Source: Draconibacterium orientale (GTDB taxonomy: Bacteria > Bacteroidota > Bacteroidia > Bacteroidales > Prolixibacteraceae). From it: 64,000 nucleotides of DNA. A model generated the notes under the pieces. The model saw only the letters and a program-made list of their open reading frames with translations, was not told the origin of the DNA and did not search any database. The DNA lies in contig NZ_CP007451.1 of the NCBI RefSeq assembly GCF_000626635.1, positions 1,922,001 to 1,986,000 of the forward strand. The letters run 5' to 3'. Position numbers and translations under genes: made by a program. This document shows, one piece after another, positions 36,729 to 63,704 of the stretch; within the stretch, counting starts at the first letter, position 1, and the number at the start of each line of letters is the position of its first letter.

Positions 36729-37438
36729 ATAAGGTTTGGGTAGATTTTCAAATTATTTCTACTAAGGTTGAGGTTGAAGAATAAGGTTTCTAATTTGCAA
36801 CGTAAGAATTAACAGTGTCTAATCTTTGAATTTGAATGTGCTCCGAAAAACCACATTTTAAGAGAATAAACCTTAGTAGCGCTATAAAATAAGGTTAATA
36901 AGGTTGGGGTAGGTGGCAGGAAGGATTTCTACTAAGGTTTCGGTTGAAGAATAAGGTTTTTTTTGAGACGTATAAACCGAACAGGTGTAAATTTTTCAAC
37001 TTAAATGTACTCCGAAAAACCTTATTTTAAAAGAATAAACCTTAATGGCGCTATGAAATAAGGTTAATAAGGTTGGGGTAGGTGGCTGGAAGGATTTCTA
37101 CTAAGGTTGAGGATGAAGAATGATAAGGTTTTTTATTTACAGCCTATGAATTAGCAGGTTTTATAGTTTTTCAACTTAAATGTGCTCTATAAGAACCTTA
37201 TTTTAAAAGAATAAACCTTAGTAGCCGAGAATCACAAATAGTAAAAAACCTTATTAACCTTATCTGTTTGGAAAAAACGTTTCTTCAAAAAAGTTCTGCT
37301 AAGGTTATTTGTTGAAATATGAAACGAACAGGCGAATATCTTTTAAATTTGATTATAACCCATAAAAGCCTTATTTTTAGGGGATAAACCTTACTAGTAC
37401 TAAATTTATAATAAACAAAAACCTTATTAACCTTATCC
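36729..37438. repeat. Array of four AAGGTT-rich palindromic elements upstream of a RAYT
   Basis: Four related units follow one another: about 36729-36888, 36889-37057, 37058-37263 and 37264-37438. A full unit (37058-37263, 206 bp) begins ATAAGGTTAATAAGGTT and ends with its exact reverse complement, a 17-bp terminal inverted repeat, with an inner CTAAGGTT...AACCTTAG pair. Units 1 and 2 share the head but run into the next head; unit 4 has only the tail, which ends three bases before the transposase ATG. Shared words include TAGGTGGCTGGAAGGATT and AGAATAAACCTTAGTAG. Confidence 0.88.
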
Positions 37439-37441
37439 AAC

Positions 37442-37882
37442 ATGAAAATTGAATACAATAACCTTTACACGCATTTTATTCTGACCACTTACAAGCGAAT
37501 GGCATTTATTTCAGAAAAAAGCAGAGAGCGGATTGAAAAGTATATTACAGGAATTGTTTCGCATCAGAATTCAAAACTATATGCCATTTATGCCAATCCT
37601 GAACATGTTCATTTTTTGGTTTCTCGTTCGCCTTATATTTCTGAAGAAGAACTACTTGAAATCGTTGCCGGCAGTACTGAGCGATTTATTAACTCGAATA
37701 AATTGGTTGCAGGAAAATTTGCCTGGCAACAAGCTGCTTCGGCATTTTCAATTTCGAAATCGGATGTTGACCGGGTGTGCAAATACATTTTGAATCAACC
37801 GGGACATCACAAGAAAACTACTTTTGAGGAAGAATATCAAAAGTTTATTGAACATTATCAAACGGGGAATAAAAATCATTAA
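37442..37882 (+). CDS. REP-associated tyrosine transposase (RAYT, IS200/IS605 TnpA-like)
   Basis: 146 aa, HUH single-strand DNA transposase. HVHFLV gives the HUH pair (H55, H57); Y115 in CKYILNQPGHHKK is the likely nucleophile. RAYTs are thought to cut and move REP-type palindromes in trans. This copy sits inside an array of AAGGTT elements, one directly upstream of its ATG and a full 206-bp unit 20 bases downstream, so these are the probable substrate. It has no flanking IS-type ends of its own. Confidence 0.88.
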   Translation: MKIEYNNLYTHFILTTYKRMAFISEKSRERIEKYITGIVSHQNSKLYAIYANPEHVHFLVSRSPYISEEELLEIVAGSTERFINSNKLVAGKFAWQQAASAFSISKSDVDRVCKYILNQPGHHKKTTFEEEYQKFIEHYQTGNKNH

Positions 37883-53552: not shown

Positions 53553-54012
53553 CCTCCAACCATTCGAATAAATATTCATTTTTAAATTCAATGTCGAAGG
53601 CGTTCAAAAAGGCCAGATATTCTTCTTGAAAGGACTTCTTTCTATGGTGTTCTTTTTGGTTTTCTATGTACCGAATAATATCGTTCAATTGAGATTGCCC
53701 GTACGAGAATGCTCCAAATCCTTGCTGCCAGCGAAATTGAAATTTCGAAAATTGTTTCTCTTTAATAAACGAATCAGATGATTTTTTTATCTCTCTAACC
53801 AGGTCTGAAAGGCAACAGGTCGGTTTCATCCCGATTAAAAAATGAATATGATTGGAGGTGCCATTAATGGCTAACATTTTTTGCCCCTTATTCTGCACAA
53901 TTCCCGTTATGTATTTGTTTAATTCCTCTTCCCAATGAGGCTGTATAAGAGCGGTTCGGTTTTGTACTGCAAATATCACCTGGATATAGATTTGAGAATA
54001 GGTATCGGCCAT
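53548..54012 (-). CDS. REP-associated tyrosine transposase (RAYT), second family
   Basis: 154 aa. HUH pair in NHIHFLI (H55, H57) and catalytic Y115 in IIRYIENQKEHHRK, at the same positions as in the other RAYT of this window, though the proteins are clearly different families. It lies between REPIN-like elements with the GACTCCGGCCGGAGTC palindrome, presumably its substrate. It may have arrived with the 77-bp duplication of the neighbouring gene tail. Confidence 0.9.
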   Translation of the reverse strand: MADTYSQIYIQVIFAVQNRTALIQPHWEEELNKYITGIVQNKGQKMLAINGTSNHIHFLIGMKPTCCLSDLVREIKKSSDSFIKEKQFSKFQFRWQQGFGAFSYGQSQLNDIIRYIENQKEHHRKKSFQEEYLAFLNAFDIEFKNEYLFEWLED

Positions 54013-57139: not shown

Positions 57140-59119
57140 ATGAACCGAGCCTATTACTCAGATTCCATCATATCGTTCTCACAAAAGTCTTATACTCAAA
57201 TTTTGGGAGAGTTAGCAGATAATAATGAATTTGCCACTGAACAAACCCAAAAGGATGCATGGAAATTTCAAATCGAATATTTGCAGAATCTTCTCGCCGG
57301 ACAAACTGGTTCAATTTATTTCGAGTATGCTATACCAAGGATGGGTAAACGTATTGATGTTCTTCTGATTATCAAATCGATTATTTTCGTTGTTGAATTT
57401 AAAGTTGGAGAAAAGGAATATCCAGCATATGCCATCGATCAAGTATGGGATTATGCTTTGGACTTAAAAAACTTCCACGAAACTAGTCACGATAAAGTAA
57501 TAGTTCCTGTTTTATTAGCGACTAAAGCCAAACAATCTGATTTCTTCTTAACAACATCGAAACAAGACGATAACCTTTTTGATCCGGTTAAATCAAATAC
57601 TGAAAGTTTGAGTAGTATCATAGCTCATGCTTTGCAGTTTTACGATGGACATGCACAAGTTAATATCGAAGATTGGGAAAGTGGACGTTATCAACCAACA
57701 CCAACAATTATTGAAGCTGCAACTTCCCTGTACGCGAATCATTCAGTTGAAGATATTTCGAGAAGTGATGCCAGCGCGATTAATTTGAGTCAAACTTCGG
57801 ATGAGGTTGCAGCGATTATAAAAAAGTCGAGGGATAATTCCGAAAAGGCAATTTGTTTTGTCACCGGAGTGCCCGGGGCAGGAAAAACTTTGGTCGGTCT
57901 CAATATTGCAACTACCCATTTCGACAAAGACAGCGAATTATATAGCGTATTCCTATCTGGTAATGGACCTTTAGTAAAAATATTACAAGAAGCCTTAGCG
58001 CGCGACAAGGTTAAAAGAGCTAAAACAAACGGGGAGAGGTTAACTAAAAAAGTTGCACGTAGTGAAGTGCAAGCATTCATTCAAAATGTACATCATTTTA
58101 GAGATGAAGGGTTACGCGACAGCAATCCTCCCATCGAACACGTTACCTTGTTTGACGAAGCTCAACGGGCTTGGACGATGGAACAAACCACCAATTTTAT
58201 GCGACAGAAGAAAGGTGTTCCAGATTTTAATAAGTCAGAACCCGAATTTCTTATCTCTTGTCTCGACAGACACCCTGATTGGGCGGTGGTAGTTTGTTTA
58301 GTTGGTGGCGGACAAGAAATAAATATTGGAGAGGCTGGTATTTCTGAATGGATAGAAGCTCTTGAGCGTTCTTTTCCTGATTGGAATATTTACATGTCAA
58401 CTAAATTGACGGATAGTGAGTATAACGCCGAACAAATTCTTCAGCAAATAAAACATCGAAGAAACGTAATACATTCAGATTCACTACACCTTGCTGTTTC
58501 TATGCGCTCATTCCGTGCCGAGAATGTTTCATTGTTGGTAAAACAAATTTTGGATTTAGACAAAATTGGAGCACAATTGACATTGGCAGAGTTAAGCGAA
58601 AAATATCCTATTGTTTTAACACGAAACTTTAAAATGGCAAAACAATGGTTAAAAGATAAAGCACGAGGTTCTGAACGATATGGCATTGTCGTTTCGTCTC
58701 AGGCACAACGTTTAAAACCTTATTGTATCGATGTAAAATCGCCGATTGATCCCGTGCATTGGTTTTTAGATGAGAAAGACGATATCCGCTCTTCCTACTA
58801 TTTAGAAGATGTCGCGACAGAATTTCATGTTCAAGGGCTTGAACTCGATTGGGCATGTGTAGCATGGGATGGAGATTTTAGATTTACAGAAGAAGGATGG
58901 GATTACAAATCTTTTAAAGGCAGCAAGTGGCAAAATATAAATAAAGCGGATCGAAAGCTATATCTAAAAAATGCCTATCGAGTGCTTCTTACGCGAGCTC
59001 GTCAAGGAATGGTGATTGTTGTGCCCGAAGGTGATGCCGGAGATCACACACGGCTTCCTGAGTTTTATGATGATACTTTCGAGTATCTGAAATCGATTGG
59101 TTTCGAAGTACTTATTTAA
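57140..59119 (+). CDS. DUF2075 superfamily 1-like helicase with N-terminal nuclease-like domain
   Basis: 659 aa. Residues 60-90 show a PD-(D/E)xK-like core ([10 protein letters not shown] with D73, then VVEFKVG with E86 and K88), suggesting a nuclease fold. Walker [11 protein letters not shown] is at 241-250, Walker B-like [10 protein letters not shown] at 336-345, and a C-terminal motif VI-like [20 protein letters not shown] ends the helicase core. DUF2075 proteins are found in restriction and other defence loci. The next gene is an HNH nuclease 30 bases on. Lower GC than the flanks points to horizontal transfer. Confidence 0.85.
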
Positions 59120-59149
59120 ATAATAGATTGTCAAATCAATTATAATAGA

Positions 59150-60100
59150 ATGTCAGATTTGCTTACCTTAAATCAAGGAGTTACCAAATACGGCAAAGCG
59201 CCTCATAAGCCTATTTTGCTTTTAGCCGTAATTGAATCATTCGAAAATGAGGAGATTGTTGAGAATTGGATTGAGGTTAACGATAGTTTGGTGCAACACT
59301 TTCTCGACATCTGGAATTTACTGGTTAAAACACCTCATGTCCCCACCTTTGCACTTCCTTTTTTTCATCTCAAAAACGAAAAAGGTCAGTTCTGGAAACT
59401 GATTACATATCCCGGCAGGGAAATTCCTACAACAAAAAGTAAATCGATAAAAAGTTATCGGGCATTAACGGAAGCCGTTTGCGCTGCCACACTTTCAGAT
59501 GAATTGTACATTGCTTTATCCGATCCGATACAACGTGAGGCGTTGAAGGCTGCAATACTTGACAGATATTTTGGTATTCATAAAGTAGCACAATACCCAA
59601 AACAAGAGCCGTATTCCATAAAAATTAAGCAACAGATTCTTTACGATCCAGAACAAAACTATGCTCGAAAAGTAAAACAAACCATTAATGAGCAACCTAA
59701 AGAAGTTCGCGATGAATTTGTGGCTGCCCGAAGTGCCGTTTTCCGTAAAGCTATTCTGGAGATTTACGATAATCAATGTGCAATAACAGGTTTAAAAGTT
59801 GCCGATGAAAAAAATCGTTCTCTGCTTGATGCCTGTCATATTACGCCTTTTGCAGAAAGTTATAACGATTCAATACGAAATGGTTTAGCGCTTTCTCCTA
59901 CTTTTCACCGTGCTTTCGACCGTGGTTTGATTACTATTTCTGATAAGTATAAAATTTTAGTTCATCCTAAATTAAAAGATTACAGCCTCAAATCCGGCAT
60001 CCGGCAATACGAAAAACAAACACTTTTTCTACCTCAGGGGTCACGGTTTCACCCCGCAATAAAATGCTTACAACAGCACCGTCAGCGGTTTGGCTATTAA
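59150..60100 (+). CDS. HNH endonuclease with N-terminal sensor-like domain
   Basis: 316 aa. C-terminal HNH motif: C210 (NQCAITG), H230 (DACHITPF), N244 (RNGLALSP) and H253 (FHRAFDRGL), a full ββα-metal nuclease site. The N-terminal 200 residues (KYGKAPHKPILLLAVIESF, FWKLITYPG) resemble the leading part of McrA-like/type IV restriction HNH enzymes. Located 30 bases after the DUF2075 helicase, so a joint DNA-restriction function is a good guess. Confidence 0.88.
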   Translation: MSDLLTLNQGVTKYGKAPHKPILLLAVIESFENEEIVENWIEVNDSLVQHFLDIWNLLVKTPHVPTFALPFFHLKNEKGQFWKLITYPGREIPTTKSKSIKSYRALTEAVCAATLSDELYIALSDPIQREALKAAILDRYFGIHKVAQYPKQEPYSIKIKQQILYDPEQNYARKVKQTINEQPKEVRDEFVAARSAVFRKAILEIYDNQCAITGLKVADEKNRSLLDACHITPFAESYNDSIRNGLALSPTFHRAFDRGLITISDKYKILVHPKLKDYSLKSGIRQYEKQTLFLPQGSRFHPAIKCLQQHRQRFGY

Positions 60101-60168: not shown

Positions 60169-60423
60169 AAACTAATTAGAGCAGGTGGAAGCCAAGCCCT
60201 AAAAAGCAGGGCAAAAGTATTCTTTTCTATCAGAATTCGCTTATACTTTGAGATAAAAGTTTAATTCTACCAAAAGACCCACCGCTGCAAGGCTTATAGC
60301 AACTCTCAGATTTATTTATAACAACTACTCCTATTTTGCCCCGATCCGCTTTGCAACCATTTCGACCGGGGTGACGTAGGCTGTATTTACATGACGGACT
60401 CTAGTGTCTTAAATCGAAATACT

Positions 60424-60756
60424 ATGGCAAAGTACCTGGTTTGCGGAAAATACATCGGTGAAGGAGTACAGGGCTTACTCAGCGAGGGAGGCTCGGGCAG
60501 GCGTTCGGAGATTCATGAACTGGTCGGTTCGCTCGGCGGAAGAGTGGAAAGTGTTTATTATGCCTTTGGGGATTACGATATTTACGGCATTTTCGATATG
60601 CCCGACAACAACAGCATGGCGGCCTTTTCGTTACGGGCATCGGCCAGTGGTATGCTAAGCGTTACCTGTATCCCGCTGATGCAACCCGAAGACATCGACG
60701 AAGCGGCTAAAAAAACAAGTAGGTACCGCCCTCCGGGTGTCGACTGGCTGCCCTGA
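60424..60756 (+). CDS. GYD domain protein
   Basis: 110 aa from ATG 60424 (MAKYLVCGKYIGEGVQGL). ESVYYAFGDYDIYGIFDMPDNNSMAAF carries the G-x-Y-D signature of the GYD family (ferredoxin-like fold, function unknown). Conserved small protein, alone between the defence module and the phased TCCTGC array. Upstream in-frame ATG at 60391 adds 11 residues with no support. Confidence 0.88.
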   Translation: MAKYLVCGKYIGEGVQGLLSEGGSGRRSEIHELVGSLGGRVESVYYAFGDYDIYGIFDMPDNNSMAAFSLRASASGMLSVTCIPLMQPEDIDEAAKKTSRYRPPGVDWLP

Positions 60757-60786
60757 AAGGAGTAAAAGAGTCCTGTTATTCCCTTG

Positions 60787-61006
60787 TCCTGATCACCGAT
60801 TTAGGCGCCCTGCATAAAGATTTTGCTTTCCTGCGGCCTTTTTTATTGTCCTGCGTGGTTTTTACTCAATCCTGCAGCCTTTTTACCCGTCCTGCACTAC
60901 TTTTTTGTAATCCTGCAGCGCAGGAAAGCCTAAAACCCCTGCAGGGAGGGGTAAAATAAAGCAGGGCGCCCTACAAGCTTGCAGGGCGCCCCAAAATGGC
61001 GCAGGA
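60787..61006. repeat. Two-fold symmetric phased array of TCCTGC/GCAGGA cores
   Basis: Forward cores (TCCTGC or close) start at 60787, 60808, 60829, 60849, 60870, 60890 and 60911; reversed cores (GCAGGA/GCAGGG) start at 60920, 60941, 60961, 60981 and 61001. Steps are 20-21 bp throughout. The last forward and first reverse core form TCCTGCAGCGCAGGA, the symmetry centre. Between cores the sequence varies, with T runs on the left and A runs on the right. It fills the gap between two convergent genes. Confidence 0.85.
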
Positions 61007-61008
61007 CG

Positions 61009-61752
61009 CTATGAGTCAGCATCTTCGTCGTTGTTCTTTTGCTTTCGGTGTATTTTCCGCCAGTAATCGCTGCTATACCCTTTTAAACGTTTCGGATCTT
61101 TGCGGAATACATATTTTCCGGCTTCGCGAATTTCATCTACCAGCTCTTTCATATGCAAATAGGCCTTGTCGCGAACGATCTTCGATTCGTTCGGATCGGC
61201 TTTATCGCCGTTGGCTTCGGCCAGCAGGTCGGCCAGTGTATCGGCTAATGTTGCCGCCTCATCTAATTGTGCAAGATCGAAACTAATGGCTGTAAGCGGA
61301 TCGGGATTTTCGCGGCCTAAAACAGCAATGTCATTCAAATCCTGAATCATATCGGCATGTCCGCTGCCATCGGCAATAGCACTTACGCGGCTGAGTAGTG
61401 CATCGTTTTTACGGTAAGCAAAGCGCATCGAAGCCAGCAAATCAGTTTTAAATTCGTAAGCCAGAGGTGCCTGTTCGGCCCATTCCTCCTGCGCTTGCTG
61501 CTGCGACCGGAAATCTTTGTTCCAAATGGATTGCGCCTCGCGGCAGGCACCTGCACGTACGGGGAGATCTTCAATCTGAGTGCGGCGAATTCCAACCACA
61601 CCCAGTTTTTCGGTATCATCTAAACTCCAGTGATACAGGTTTTCGGCTTCCTGCAACGCAACGTCAACAGGCATACCGGGATCTTTTACTTCCTCATTGG
61701 GAATAGCCTCAATTTCGGCTAATTTGGCATTGTAATCTTCTGTGTTTGCCAT
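61009..61752 (-). CDS. Hypothetical protein, all-alpha
   Basis: 247 aa, soluble and acidic, mostly helical by composition (AQEEWAEQAPLAYEFKTDLLASMRFAYRKND, LAQLDEAATLADTLADLLAEANGDK). No signal peptide or motif I can name. It ends right beside the phased TCCTGC array, convergent with the GYD gene. Possibly a Bacteroidota-specific family; function unknown. Confidence 0.7.
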   Translation of the reverse strand: MANTEDYNAKLAEIEAIPNEEVKDPGMPVDVALQEAENLYHWSLDDTEKLGVVGIRRTQIEDLPVRAGACREAQSIWNKDFRSQQQAQEEWAEQAPLAYEFKTDLLASMRFAYRKNDALLSRVSAIADGSGHADMIQDLNDIAVLGRENPDPLTAISFDLAQLDEAATLADTLADLLAEANGDKADPNESKIVRDKAYLHMKELVDEIREAGKYVFRKDPKRLKGYSSDYWRKIHRKQKNNDEDADS

Positions 61753-62035
61753 TTTTGTTAATTTTAAAAAATTTTTAATTGAAAAATTATTAATTCGGGG
61801 CCACCTGTTTGCTTGCCGGCGCAGGTGGCCTTTTTCGTATGCACGCCAGCGTTCTATACTGGCGTGTACATGCTATCCGTTTAGCATGTGATCGGTAGGT
61901 GTTAAAATTTTACGGTAATTTCAGAGGTACTGGGTTAACCGTGATTTTGGTTTTTAACGTGTATAAAATTATGCAAAACGGCGTTAATTATCAATATGTT
62001 ATGTAGCAGAAGATTGCTTCACCTCCTGCGTCGGA
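61753..62035. other. Non-coding stretch upstream of the IS110 element
   Basis: GCCTTTTTCG and a GGGGCCACC/GGTGGCC pair near 61798-61830, and a CACGCCAGCG...CGCTGGCGTG-like inverted pair at 61843-61866 (ACGCCAGCGTT and ATACTGGCGTGTAC). No ORF. These are hairpins without obvious assignment. Confidence 0.4.
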
Positions 62036-62398: not shown

Positions 62399-63163
62399 AT
62401 GGAAAAAATCAGGACTAATGCAGCGGGCATCGATATTGGTGCCAAAAAAGTTTTTACAGCCGTAGAGGGGCAGCCGGTAGTAAGCCATTTAACTTTTACC
62501 GAAGATTTTTACAAATTACGGGACTATTTGGTCGGACATAAAGTTGAAACAGTTGCGATGGAAGCCACCGGTGTTTACTGGGTGATTTTATACGACATTC
62601 TGGAAGAAGCCGGTATCGATGTTTGGCTGGTGGATGGTCGCCAAACCAAACAAGTTCCAGGCCGAAAAACCGACGTAAAAGATTGTCAGTGGATCCTACA
62701 ACTACATAGCCATGGCTTGTTAAACCGGTGCCTTGTTGTTGATGCTGACATAAAAGAGTTAAGAAGCTATCTGCGATTACGGGAAGACCACATCAACTCT
62801 TCGGCGATGTACATCAATCAGATGCAAAAGGCATTAACGTTAATGAATATCAGGCTTAAAGAAGTTTTGAGCCAGATACACGGGGCAAGTGGGCTGGCAA
62901 TAATAGAAGCAATCCTAAATGGAGAACGGGACAAGCAGGTACTGGTTAGCTTGTGTCACCGTAGTGTTCTCAGTAAGAAAAAGGATTTGGTTATAAAAGC
63001 TCTGCAAGGCAAGTATACCGATGCCGGATTATTTGCGCTAAAACAGGCTTATGATGGATATAATTTTTGTTTGCAACAAATTAATGAATGCGACAGCAAA
63101 ATAAATGTTGTAATCAACAGGCTCGGTGAATCAGGCGAAGGTCAGGATCTAAAAAAAACGTAA
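62399..63163 (+). CDS. IS110 family transposase, N-terminal part
   Basis: 254 aa. RuvC-like DEDD domain: GIDIGAKKVFTAV (D), VAMEATGVYW (E) and PGRKTDVKDCQWILQLHSHGLL (D, D). The frame ends at TAA after an A8 tract (63151-63158); shifting by one base continues straight into the C-terminal part. So the protein is broken, made by slippage, or the base count is wrong. Confidence 0.88.
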   Translation: MEKIRTNAAGIDIGAKKVFTAVEGQPVVSHLTFTEDFYKLRDYLVGHKVETVAMEATGVYWVILYDILEEAGIDVWLVDGRQTKQVPGRKTDVKDCQWILQLHSHGLLNRCLVVDADIKELRSYLRLREDHINSSAMYINQMQKALTLMNIRLKEVLSQIHGASGLAIIEAILNGERDKQVLVSLCHRSVLSKKKDLVIKALQGKYTDAGLFALKQAYDGYNFCLQQINECDSKINVVINRLGESGEGQDLKKT

Positions 63164-63212
63164 AGCAGTACGTCACCACAAACCAAACGTTGAAAGGCTT
63201 GGCCCAAACCTG

Positions 63213-63704
63213 TTGAATATTTTTAATGGCAACGATGCAACCTTAATATCAGGTATTACCGATTATACATGGATGCAATTATTGGCAGAAACCGGTCCTG
63301 ATTTAACAAGGTGGCCAAGTGAAAAACATTTTACAAGCTGGTTGGGACTGTCTCCGGGGCAGCATAGCTCTGGAAAAATGCGACGAAATGTAAAGAAAAA
63401 AGGCAAACCAAAAGCAGGGCAGATTTTTAGGGTAATTGCTCAGGGACTTATAAACAGTAAAGACATTGCAATAGGCTCATTTGGAAGACGATTACGTGGG
63501 CGAAAAGGCCCAAGAATAGCAATAAAGGCCATGGCCCGAAAACTGGCAGTCCTTTACTGGCGCGTAATGGTAAAAGGGCTTGACTATGCAGAACAAGGAG
63601 TACAACTATATGAAGAACAAATAATGATAAATAAAATGAGAACAGTAAACAAATTGGCAAAAGAACTAAACATGGAAGTAGTAAATTGTCAAAATGTAAA
63701 TTAA
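63213..63704 (+). CDS. IS110 family transposase, C-terminal part
   Basis: 163 aa in the next frame. It has the Transposase_20 domain: LISGITDYTWMQLLAETGPDLTRWPSEKHFTSWLGLSPGQHSSGKM, with the Ser of the SSGK stretch a likely nucleophile. The open frame actually reaches back to about 63162 (KAVRHHKPNVERLG), giving a continuous fusion with the N-terminal part if one A is removed. Together about 434 aa. Confidence 0.85.
   Translation: MNIFNGNDATLISGITDYTWMQLLAETGPDLTRWPSEKHFTSWLGLSPGQHSSGKMRRNVKKKGKPKAGQIFRVIAQGLINSKDIAIGSFGRRLRGRKGPRIAIKAMARKLAVLYWRVMVKGLDYAEQGVQLYEEQIMINKMRTVNKLAKELNMEVVNCQNVN

Follow-up and report, generated by a model that had tools for sequence, protein, structure and literature searches.

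Array and Genes at the Window Locus

The window, a 64-kb stretch of the single-contig genome (5.13 Mb) of the marine bacterium Draconibacterium orientale, contains at 60391–60756 (plus strand) a gene for a GYD protein and at 61009–61752 (minus strand) a gene, hereafter of family A, for a 247-aa all-helical protein with the tail motif GYSSDYWRK, which includes W231. An array of short cores lies between them. Its forward arm (60787–60916, plus strand) consists of seven cores in steps of 20 or 21 bp, most of them preceded by a T-rich tract. The reverse arm (60920–61006, minus strand) consists of five GCAGGR cores in 20- or 21-bp steps, with 2 bp between its end and the stop codon of the family A gene. 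The arms meet at a centre (60911–60925) made up of the last forward core, 3 bp and the first reversed core, 9 bp from start to start.

Twelve TCCTGC/GCAGGA cores had been listed in the first-pass annotation of this DNA, and all twelve were recovered at their positions. The exact word is found at seven of them (60829, 60849, 60870, 60890, 60911, 60920 and 61001); 60808 reads CCCTGC, 60941, 60961 and 60981 read GCAGGG, and 60787 is degenerate (TCCTGA), so that YCCTGC/GCAGGR fits 11 of the 12. The 20- or 21-bp spacing claimed for the array was reproduced (21, 21, 20, 21, 20, 21, then 9 at the centre, then 21, 20, 20, 20), as was the mirror symmetry of five core pairs to within one base (start-position sums 121831, 121831, 121831, 121830 and 121830). 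The longest phased chain of exact YCCTGY/RCAGGR cores numbered 11. Shuffled sequences, named in the annotation as a way in which the regularity could fail, gave chains of at most 3 in 5000 dinucleotide-preserving shuffles of 60701–61080 and never more than 2 in 40 shuffles of the whole window, and no second phased chain of at least four cores was found in the 64 kb. The earlier observation of the array is confirmed as real. Since the period is not a multiple of three, the array was not taken for coding sequence.

The word TCCTGC was frequent across the whole window: 18.6 matches were expected and 48 found, including 7 inside the array. A gene for a Schlafen-group-3 helicase and, behind it, one for an HNH endonuclease occupy 57140–60100 and form a defence-like pair; the pair also stands beside the window locus in genome G009, and in part in G004, G017 and G020. 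On the other side, roughly 0.4 kb past the left end of the unit formed by gene and array, an IS110-type transposase gene (62399–63704) is split over two frames (62399–63163 and 63213–63704), and this copy looks interrupted. A 169-bp tandem repeat of 2.7 copies at 36755–37225 contains AATAAGGTT words.

Anatomy of the Arrays in the Genus

At least five CCTGY arrays are present in the D. orientale genome, at C1:42449, 222081, 1982787 (the window array), 4072556 and 4792866. A search of related genomes, proposed earlier as a check, was run on 37 genomes of the genus, and the two-armed pattern was found at 52 places in 22 of them (0 to 8 arrays per genome), against none for a control consisting of the same pattern read backwards. 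A loose three-core pattern gave 441 matches in 31 genomes against 60 in 24 for the backward control; with control matches this frequent, single loose matches mean little. In a pattern search of 295 genomes at the level of the order, the matches listed were mainly other repeats; three genomes outside the genus (G046, G155 and G230) showed many phased CCTGY cores with few or no control matches.

Loci of the source genus and other genera provided 62 distinct two-armed arrays that contained six or more exact cores, the number of cores ranging from 6 to 14. Same-direction steps were of 20 bp (303), 21 bp (189), 22 bp (7) and 19 bp (1), the remaining steps being of about 41 and 61 bp where a core is missing, and the period was 20.41 bp (SD 0.22) over 86 arms. 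In 55 of the 62 arrays the arms met at a 9-bp centre. An ORF of at least 100 aa was overlapped by nine arrays. The filling of a gap between convergent genes, as described for the window array, holds at that locus and not as a general rule: around the 56 arrays that were classified, gene orientation was tandem in 30, convergent in 20 and divergent in 6.

The sequence between cores had been called unconserved. Spacers do vary more than cores, and they hold a T-tract at a fixed distance ahead of the next core, which qualifies that description. The centre of the tract lies 8 bp ahead of the next core in 20- and 21-bp units alike, so that the tract belongs to that core. The expected conservation of cores during spacer drift was borne out by the gene-proximal arm of the window locus in ten species: in pairwise comparison of species, differences were 2.6 times as frequent among spacer bases (962 of 2740 aligned pairs) as among core bases (213 of 1557).

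The order of the steps was also constrained. Over 94 arms, neighbouring 21–21 steps numbered 18 against 41.3 (SD 3.3) expected, a value not reached in any of 5000 within-arm permutations; when the count was restricted to 35 distinct arms, 17 were observed against 28.4 (SD 2.5). Such compensation would be expected if rotational phase were held over many units, and expansion by 41-bp pairs could be an alternative origin of the 20/21 alternation.

A neutral minisatellite or a chance pattern with no function would find some backing in the nearly identical units of two distant arrays (L092 and L116), as slippage would give. Such an origin is nevertheless highly improbable in view of the shuffles, which never reach the window array, the slower change of cores than of spacers, the reversal of polarity about a fixed 9-bp centre and the phase compensation between 20- and 21-bp steps.

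Predicted RNA Structure

A structured transcript end had been suggested as one function of the window array, with prediction of both transcript folds as its check. Both strands of the window array gave better folds than shuffles (z −3.5 and −3.4), which its inverted cores would bring about, whereas the one-directional arrays of two homologs (L092 and L122, one strand each) folded worse than shuffles (z +2.7 and +1.3). Pairing was no better between mirrored spacers (0.483, n = 75) than between unmirrored ones (0.493, n = 419). At core position 1, a C–A mismatch (52) was as common as a T–G wobble (43). Core position 6 showed a weak agreement between mirror partners (91 of 115 against 82.8, SD 3.3, p = 0.009), which a hairpin would equally give and which is inseparable from a centre-to-edge trend. 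One terminator-like hairpin lies inside the window array on the minus strand (60993–60962); terminator-like sites numbered 3 against 2.1 (SD 1.7) in shuffles. No Rfam match above the gathering score was obtained.

On these results the structured transcript end was not upheld. More broadly, an array acting as RNA, either as the structured 3′ end or terminator of convergent genes or as a precursor to guide-like small RNAs, as in TIGR arrays, is unlikely. The good fold of the window array, its terminator-like hairpin, the agreement at position 6 and the location directly 3′ of a gene agree with such a role; spacers that fail to pair with their mirror partners, C–A mismatches as common as T–G wobbles, poorly folding one-directional arrays, terminator-like sites at the level of shuffles, the lack of an Rfam match above the gathering score and a convergent setting in only 20 of 56 arrays speak against it, and the strict 20/21-bp phasing is not expected of RNA.

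The Family A Protein and Its Gene

Searches with the 247-aa protein gave no match in Pfam at E 0.001 or, at E 1, in PADLOC and the PDB sequences; PHROG yielded weak matches only. The NCBIfam family PQLLE (NF052641) matched 39 of 47 family A members at E 0.1 or better (best E 2.1e-7); the window protein itself scored 20.5 bits, below the cut-off of 80, and a distant relationship of family A to PQLLE is possible. The AlphaFold2 model was confident and helical (pLDDT 91.5, pTM 0.71). At E 0.001 the model matched nothing in Foldseek, it contains no recognised DNA-binding fold, and the structure matches obtained with VIA were all within the range of helical bundles, the best being the S23-family protein 2rld (BT_0352; S23/IVS four-helix bundle). 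Comparison with four orthologs over 225 codons gave dN/dS values of 0.09, 0.15, 0.11 and 0.08, indicating strong purifying selection. A phage, plasmid or viral origin was rejected, as the window gene had no match in plasmid (72,556 records), phage and viral collections.

Upstream of the gene, a region at 61753–62009 (minus strand) is alignable in six relatives and ends abruptly at 61991–62009 (CTGCTACATAACATATTGA, minus strand); it is also present at the unit of one relative that contains a different gene, gene B (see below). The 19-bp motif CTGCTACATAACATATTGA lies at the edge of similarity in six relatives (five with gene A, one of them a remnant, and one with gene B) and occurs with at most two mismatches at 6 of the 45 gene loci examined. 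The edge was rejected as a transposon end because the motif is found nowhere else in the genome at up to three mismatches. Given this lack of other copies and its presence at 6 of 45 loci, the motif may reflect promoter conservation beside a hypervariable flank. A hairpin at 61805–61828, between the promoter region and the partner gene, has a T-run, which is on the opposite strand to the gene. Alignment of seven sequences showed conservation of both the downstream arm and the T-run, and similar hairpins were seen by eye ahead of many homologs. In G024 and G030, REP-like palindromes, likewise recognised by eye, come after the left edge of the unit.

Homologs and Their Downstream Arrays

A scan of 84,980 species genomes yielded 56 loci homologous to the 247-aa gene, assigned in the records, many of them of metagenome-assembled genomes, to Bacteroidota, KSB1, Aminicenantes, Neomarinimicrobiota, Gamma- and Deltaproteobacteria and others. 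An array was accepted when the strongest downstream repeat lag was 19–22 or 40–42 bp and at most 2% of 60 shuffles were as strong. By this rule 43 of the 55 homologs with enough sequence have a downstream array; the other twelve are L090, L093, L096, L104, L107, L111, L115, L123, L125, L126, L128 and L131, although L090 contains an 11-core CCTGY array. Upstream of the gene, only 5 of 52 passed the same test (L081, L089, L092, L111 and L126), with a clear array in L111 and L126. Under a looser rule 79 of 87 gene loci were positive, some places being counted twice.

The core word varies with lineage and paralog, and includes GCAGGA, ACAGGA, TACCCG, GATGGGG, TATCCGG, TGAGAA, GTAGGAAG, CCGCGGGA, TGCAAAGG, GTGATAAC and others. 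The three paralogs of the D. orientale genome have three different cores (CCTGC, GTGATAAC and GCGAGG), and the core of one paralog (GCGAGGGA, C1:3608419) is likewise arranged as a two-armed array. Within the flanks examined, no neighbouring gene family was seen at more than 6 of the 72 loci, so that the unit stands alone.

Within the genus, array and gene were both present in 20 of the 37 genomes, array only in 2, gene only in 3 and neither in 12 (Fisher p = 1.8e-5); the p-value was 9.6e-5 without a gene fragment in G004 and 4.8e-4 when broken copies in G017 were also left uncounted. The gene was not detected at E 0.001 in 14 genomes. Two arrays and no gene were found in G005 (99% complete), eight arrays and a gene fragment of only 49 residues in G004, and a gene with no two-armed CCTGY array in G029, G012 and G001.

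Covariation of Residue 231 with the Core Word

Array-bearing proteins were clustered at 70% identity, both members being kept where the core class differed; 8 proteins with no clear array were left out. Of the 43 representatives that remained, 15 had a CAGG core and 28 had other cores. Among the 247 columns, residue 231 in the C-terminal tail was the one most strongly associated with core class (z 7.1, not equalled in 300 permutations); residues 41 (z 4.9) and 179 (z 3.5) came next. This residue is W, Y or F in 13 of the 15 CAGG representatives and in 5 of the 28 others (Fisher p = 1.7e-5, kinship ignored), a p-value that is optimistic owing to shared ancestry and to the retention of pairs more than 70% identical when their core class differed.

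L081 shares 79% identity with the window protein and combines R at position 231 with the core GGAAAG; the more distant L087 and L088, about 60% identical, have R and cores of the CTGGAAAG/CTGGAAGA type. Counterexamples exist both for W, found with non-CAGG cores, and for N, found with two CAGG cores, so residue 231 is not the only determinant. In the gene-proximal arm at the window locus of ten species, intact cores were uniformly CCTGC (six) or CCTGT (four), apart from one degenerate unit each in G031 and G033. CCTGC and CCTGT were mixed in 31 of the 56 arrays with a clean centre; the switch is therefore not coherent in every array.

A Second Protein Family

At the window locus of G017 (L235:4600–5900), the GYD gene and the upstream region (88% identity over 87 bp) are both present, and what they enclose is not gene A but a 119-aa gene, termed gene B, with its own TTACC array. 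The window protein had no match at this locus at E 1. The product of gene B appears helical by eye and had no Pfam or NCBIfam match over cut-off. Homologs of gene B were found in 21 of the 37 genomes of the genus, and 20 of the 24 homologs tested (loci L263–L287) have a downstream array of 20–22 or 41–43 bp, with palindromic words such as TTACC-GGTAA or CCCC-GGGG. The D. orientale copy contains an in-frame stop and lacks an array. Where D. orientale has its array at 42 kb, CCCC-GGGG units occur in G030 and G012, and no array in G024 and G007. From the gene B arrays and the shared loci, the plan of the arrays, and even their sites, are common to two protein families.

Dispersal of the Arrays

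Only one of the five D. orientale arrays has a gene copy beside it. At the C1:222081 site, the flanking similarities are separated by 263–277 bp in D. orientale and by at most 10 bp in six relatives, which represents an empty site, and a seventh relative has a shortened array; no target-site duplication was seen by eye. A search for the empty site of the array at 4.79 Mb matched one flank only. Five of the eight arrays of G004, two of G032 and one of G000, all at non-orthologous loci, are about 72–89% alike, and the five of G004 are 74–89% alike among themselves. One end of this similarity often stops within 5 bp of the array end, and the other usually lies one or two units inside the array; in the pair L185/L186 the similarity extends 134 bp past the array. 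Other arrays have positions common to two or three species: L184/L191 and L186/L190 are collinear over 4.5 and 7 kb, and L177/L189/L194 were judged by common neighbours. The neighbours of 20 arrays examined showed no common function by eye.

Remnants of gene A comprising its last 30–50 residues, with the array still behind, were noted at L243:2546–2686, L244:2568–2690 and L245:2582–2662. These 5′-truncated copies suggested retrotransposition, which was set aside since the breakpoints cluster near residues 189–204. Of the earlier proposal of a decayed mobile element, mobility agrees with dispersed arrays, one with empty sites, and decay does not agree with a partner gene under purifying selection (dN/dS 0.08–0.15).

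Twelve Y1_Tnp (IS200/RAYT-type) matches are present in the D. orientale genome, two of them in the window (37457–37798 and 53656–54000). REPs and REPINs are short, dispersed intergenic repeats, often opposed and of family-specific sequence, whose cognate RAYT gene is itself flanked by repeats; the REP unit is defined as a palindrome tagged GTAG or CGTC with a cognate Y1 transposase (PMC3733652). The phased arrays are likewise dispersed and intergenic, lying mainly between tandem and convergent genes (30 + 20 of 56). They differ in having no GTAG/CGTC tag, a non-palindromic core (YCCTGY followed by a T-tract), 6–14 exact cores and a partner protein with no Y1/HUH match. That RAYT transposases move the arrays as REP- or MITE-type repeats, the 247-aa gene being a bystander, is quite unlikely. 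Y1_Tnp genes do occur in 35 of the 37 genomes, and some lie 2.5 kb from arrays (L186 and L190); what we take by eye, from its motif, to be a RAYT-type Y1 gene stands directly behind the Sunxiuqinia array (L079). Their presence is, however, independent of the arrays (21 of 22 genomes with and 14 of 15 without, p = 1), on which ground RAYT was rejected as the driver, and neither the untagged, non-palindromic units nor an association of gene and array that spans several phyla, with the core tracking the protein, fits this origin.

Relation to Other Repeat Systems

CRISPR arrays consist of long, near-identical repeats with unique spacers, whereas the conserved core of the phased arrays is 6 nt. 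In plasmid iteron and centromere arrays (Rep/iteron, ParR/parC and pSK1 Par), sites about two helical turns apart lie near the gene of the binder. The arrays described here resemble them in that the spacing of the sites is close to a whole number of helical turns and a candidate gene for the binder lies alongside, and differ in being chromosomal, with solo copies elsewhere, opposed polar arms and no conserved partner gene; no conserved replication or NTPase partner was found within the flanks, and there was no plasmid match.

In TIGR-Tas systems the Tas protein has a Nop domain, and the 36-nt unit combines edge and loop repeats with two variable spacers (PMC12045711). Shared with the phased arrays are the location beside a protein gene, a repeat that differs between loci and, in some homologs, a two-unit period of 40–42 bp; the 20.4-bp unit, the fixed T-tract in the spacers and the mid-array reversal of polarity set the phased arrays apart from these systems. 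The Nop family was absent from a Pfam scan of 47 family A members (up to E 0.1, 17 families matched), a comparison by sequence profile only. TAACTGA direct repeats, recorded in Beggiatoaceae, Cyanobacteria and Bacteroidetes, are also intergenic arrays of a short word in distant phyla; they differ in being one fixed heptamer found mostly just upstream of start codons in the genome studied, and the abstract mentions no linked protein gene (PMC4679880). Among the titles and beginnings of abstracts listed in literature searches that covered few subscription papers, no description of the phased arrays appeared.

Proposed Role of the Gene–Array Unit

Anatomy, phasing, association, covariation of core and residue, dispersed copies and empty sites were all computed from genomes. 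Their probable explanation is a polar, helically phased DNA platform bound by the neighbouring protein, within a two-part unit that disperses. The array would serve as the platform for the small helical protein encoded alongside. Each unit would be a bipartite site of a 6-bp core and an A/T tract about one turn off, the core being read in part by the C-terminal tail around residue 231. Neighbouring copies of the protein would line one face of the DNA at two-turn intervals, and in the D. orientale clade two rows of protein would run head to head and meet at the 15-bp inverted repeat. Gene and 3′ array would form a two-part unit, from which arrays alone may be copied to other intergenic sites. 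Cooperative protein binding, raised in the first-pass annotation, is the reading best supported, by the two-turn phasing, the step compensation, the tracking of core class by one residue and the paralog-specific cores; binding itself, cooperativity, the one-face arrangement and the mode of array movement are what we infer from them. Most likely the unit is a spreading element of selfish or semi-selfish kind, with a protein that marks the element's copies.

The main rival is a housekeeping role of the same complex, as a nucleoid organiser, in partition or as a transcription insulator, with ordinary duplication and selection for useful copies; it has a lower probability. In its favour are purifying selection on the partner gene, some arrays kept at one site in two or three species and a two-turn phasing that resembles iteron and centromere arrays. 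It is less easily reconciled with empty sites in six relatives, with arrays that vary from 0 to 8 per genome in one genus, with a gene missing at E 0.001 from 14 of 37 genomes and with array neighbours of no common function by eye; nor was a conserved partner such as a ParA-like NTPase present within the flanks examined.

The dispersing platform points, as far as genome comparison goes, to a hitherto undescribed pairing of a protein with its own DNA address. Whether it amounts to a new class of two-part DNA system is evenly balanced in our judgement: such a class would extend over several phyla and comprise small helical proteins with no known fold relative, each with its own word every two turns, the word being set in part by one tail residue and distinct between paralogs, and at least two unrelated-looking protein families would use the same plan and sites, providing a natural recognition code on a dispersing element. 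If so, a widespread genetic system would have been missed, its protein having no domain annotation and its DNA part being hidden from repeat finders by a constant portion of just some 6 bp and a word that changes from lineage to lineage. Many natural protein–word pairs would become available, together with a specificity residue open to testing, and binding and deletion experiments could directly test what a conserved orphan family does.
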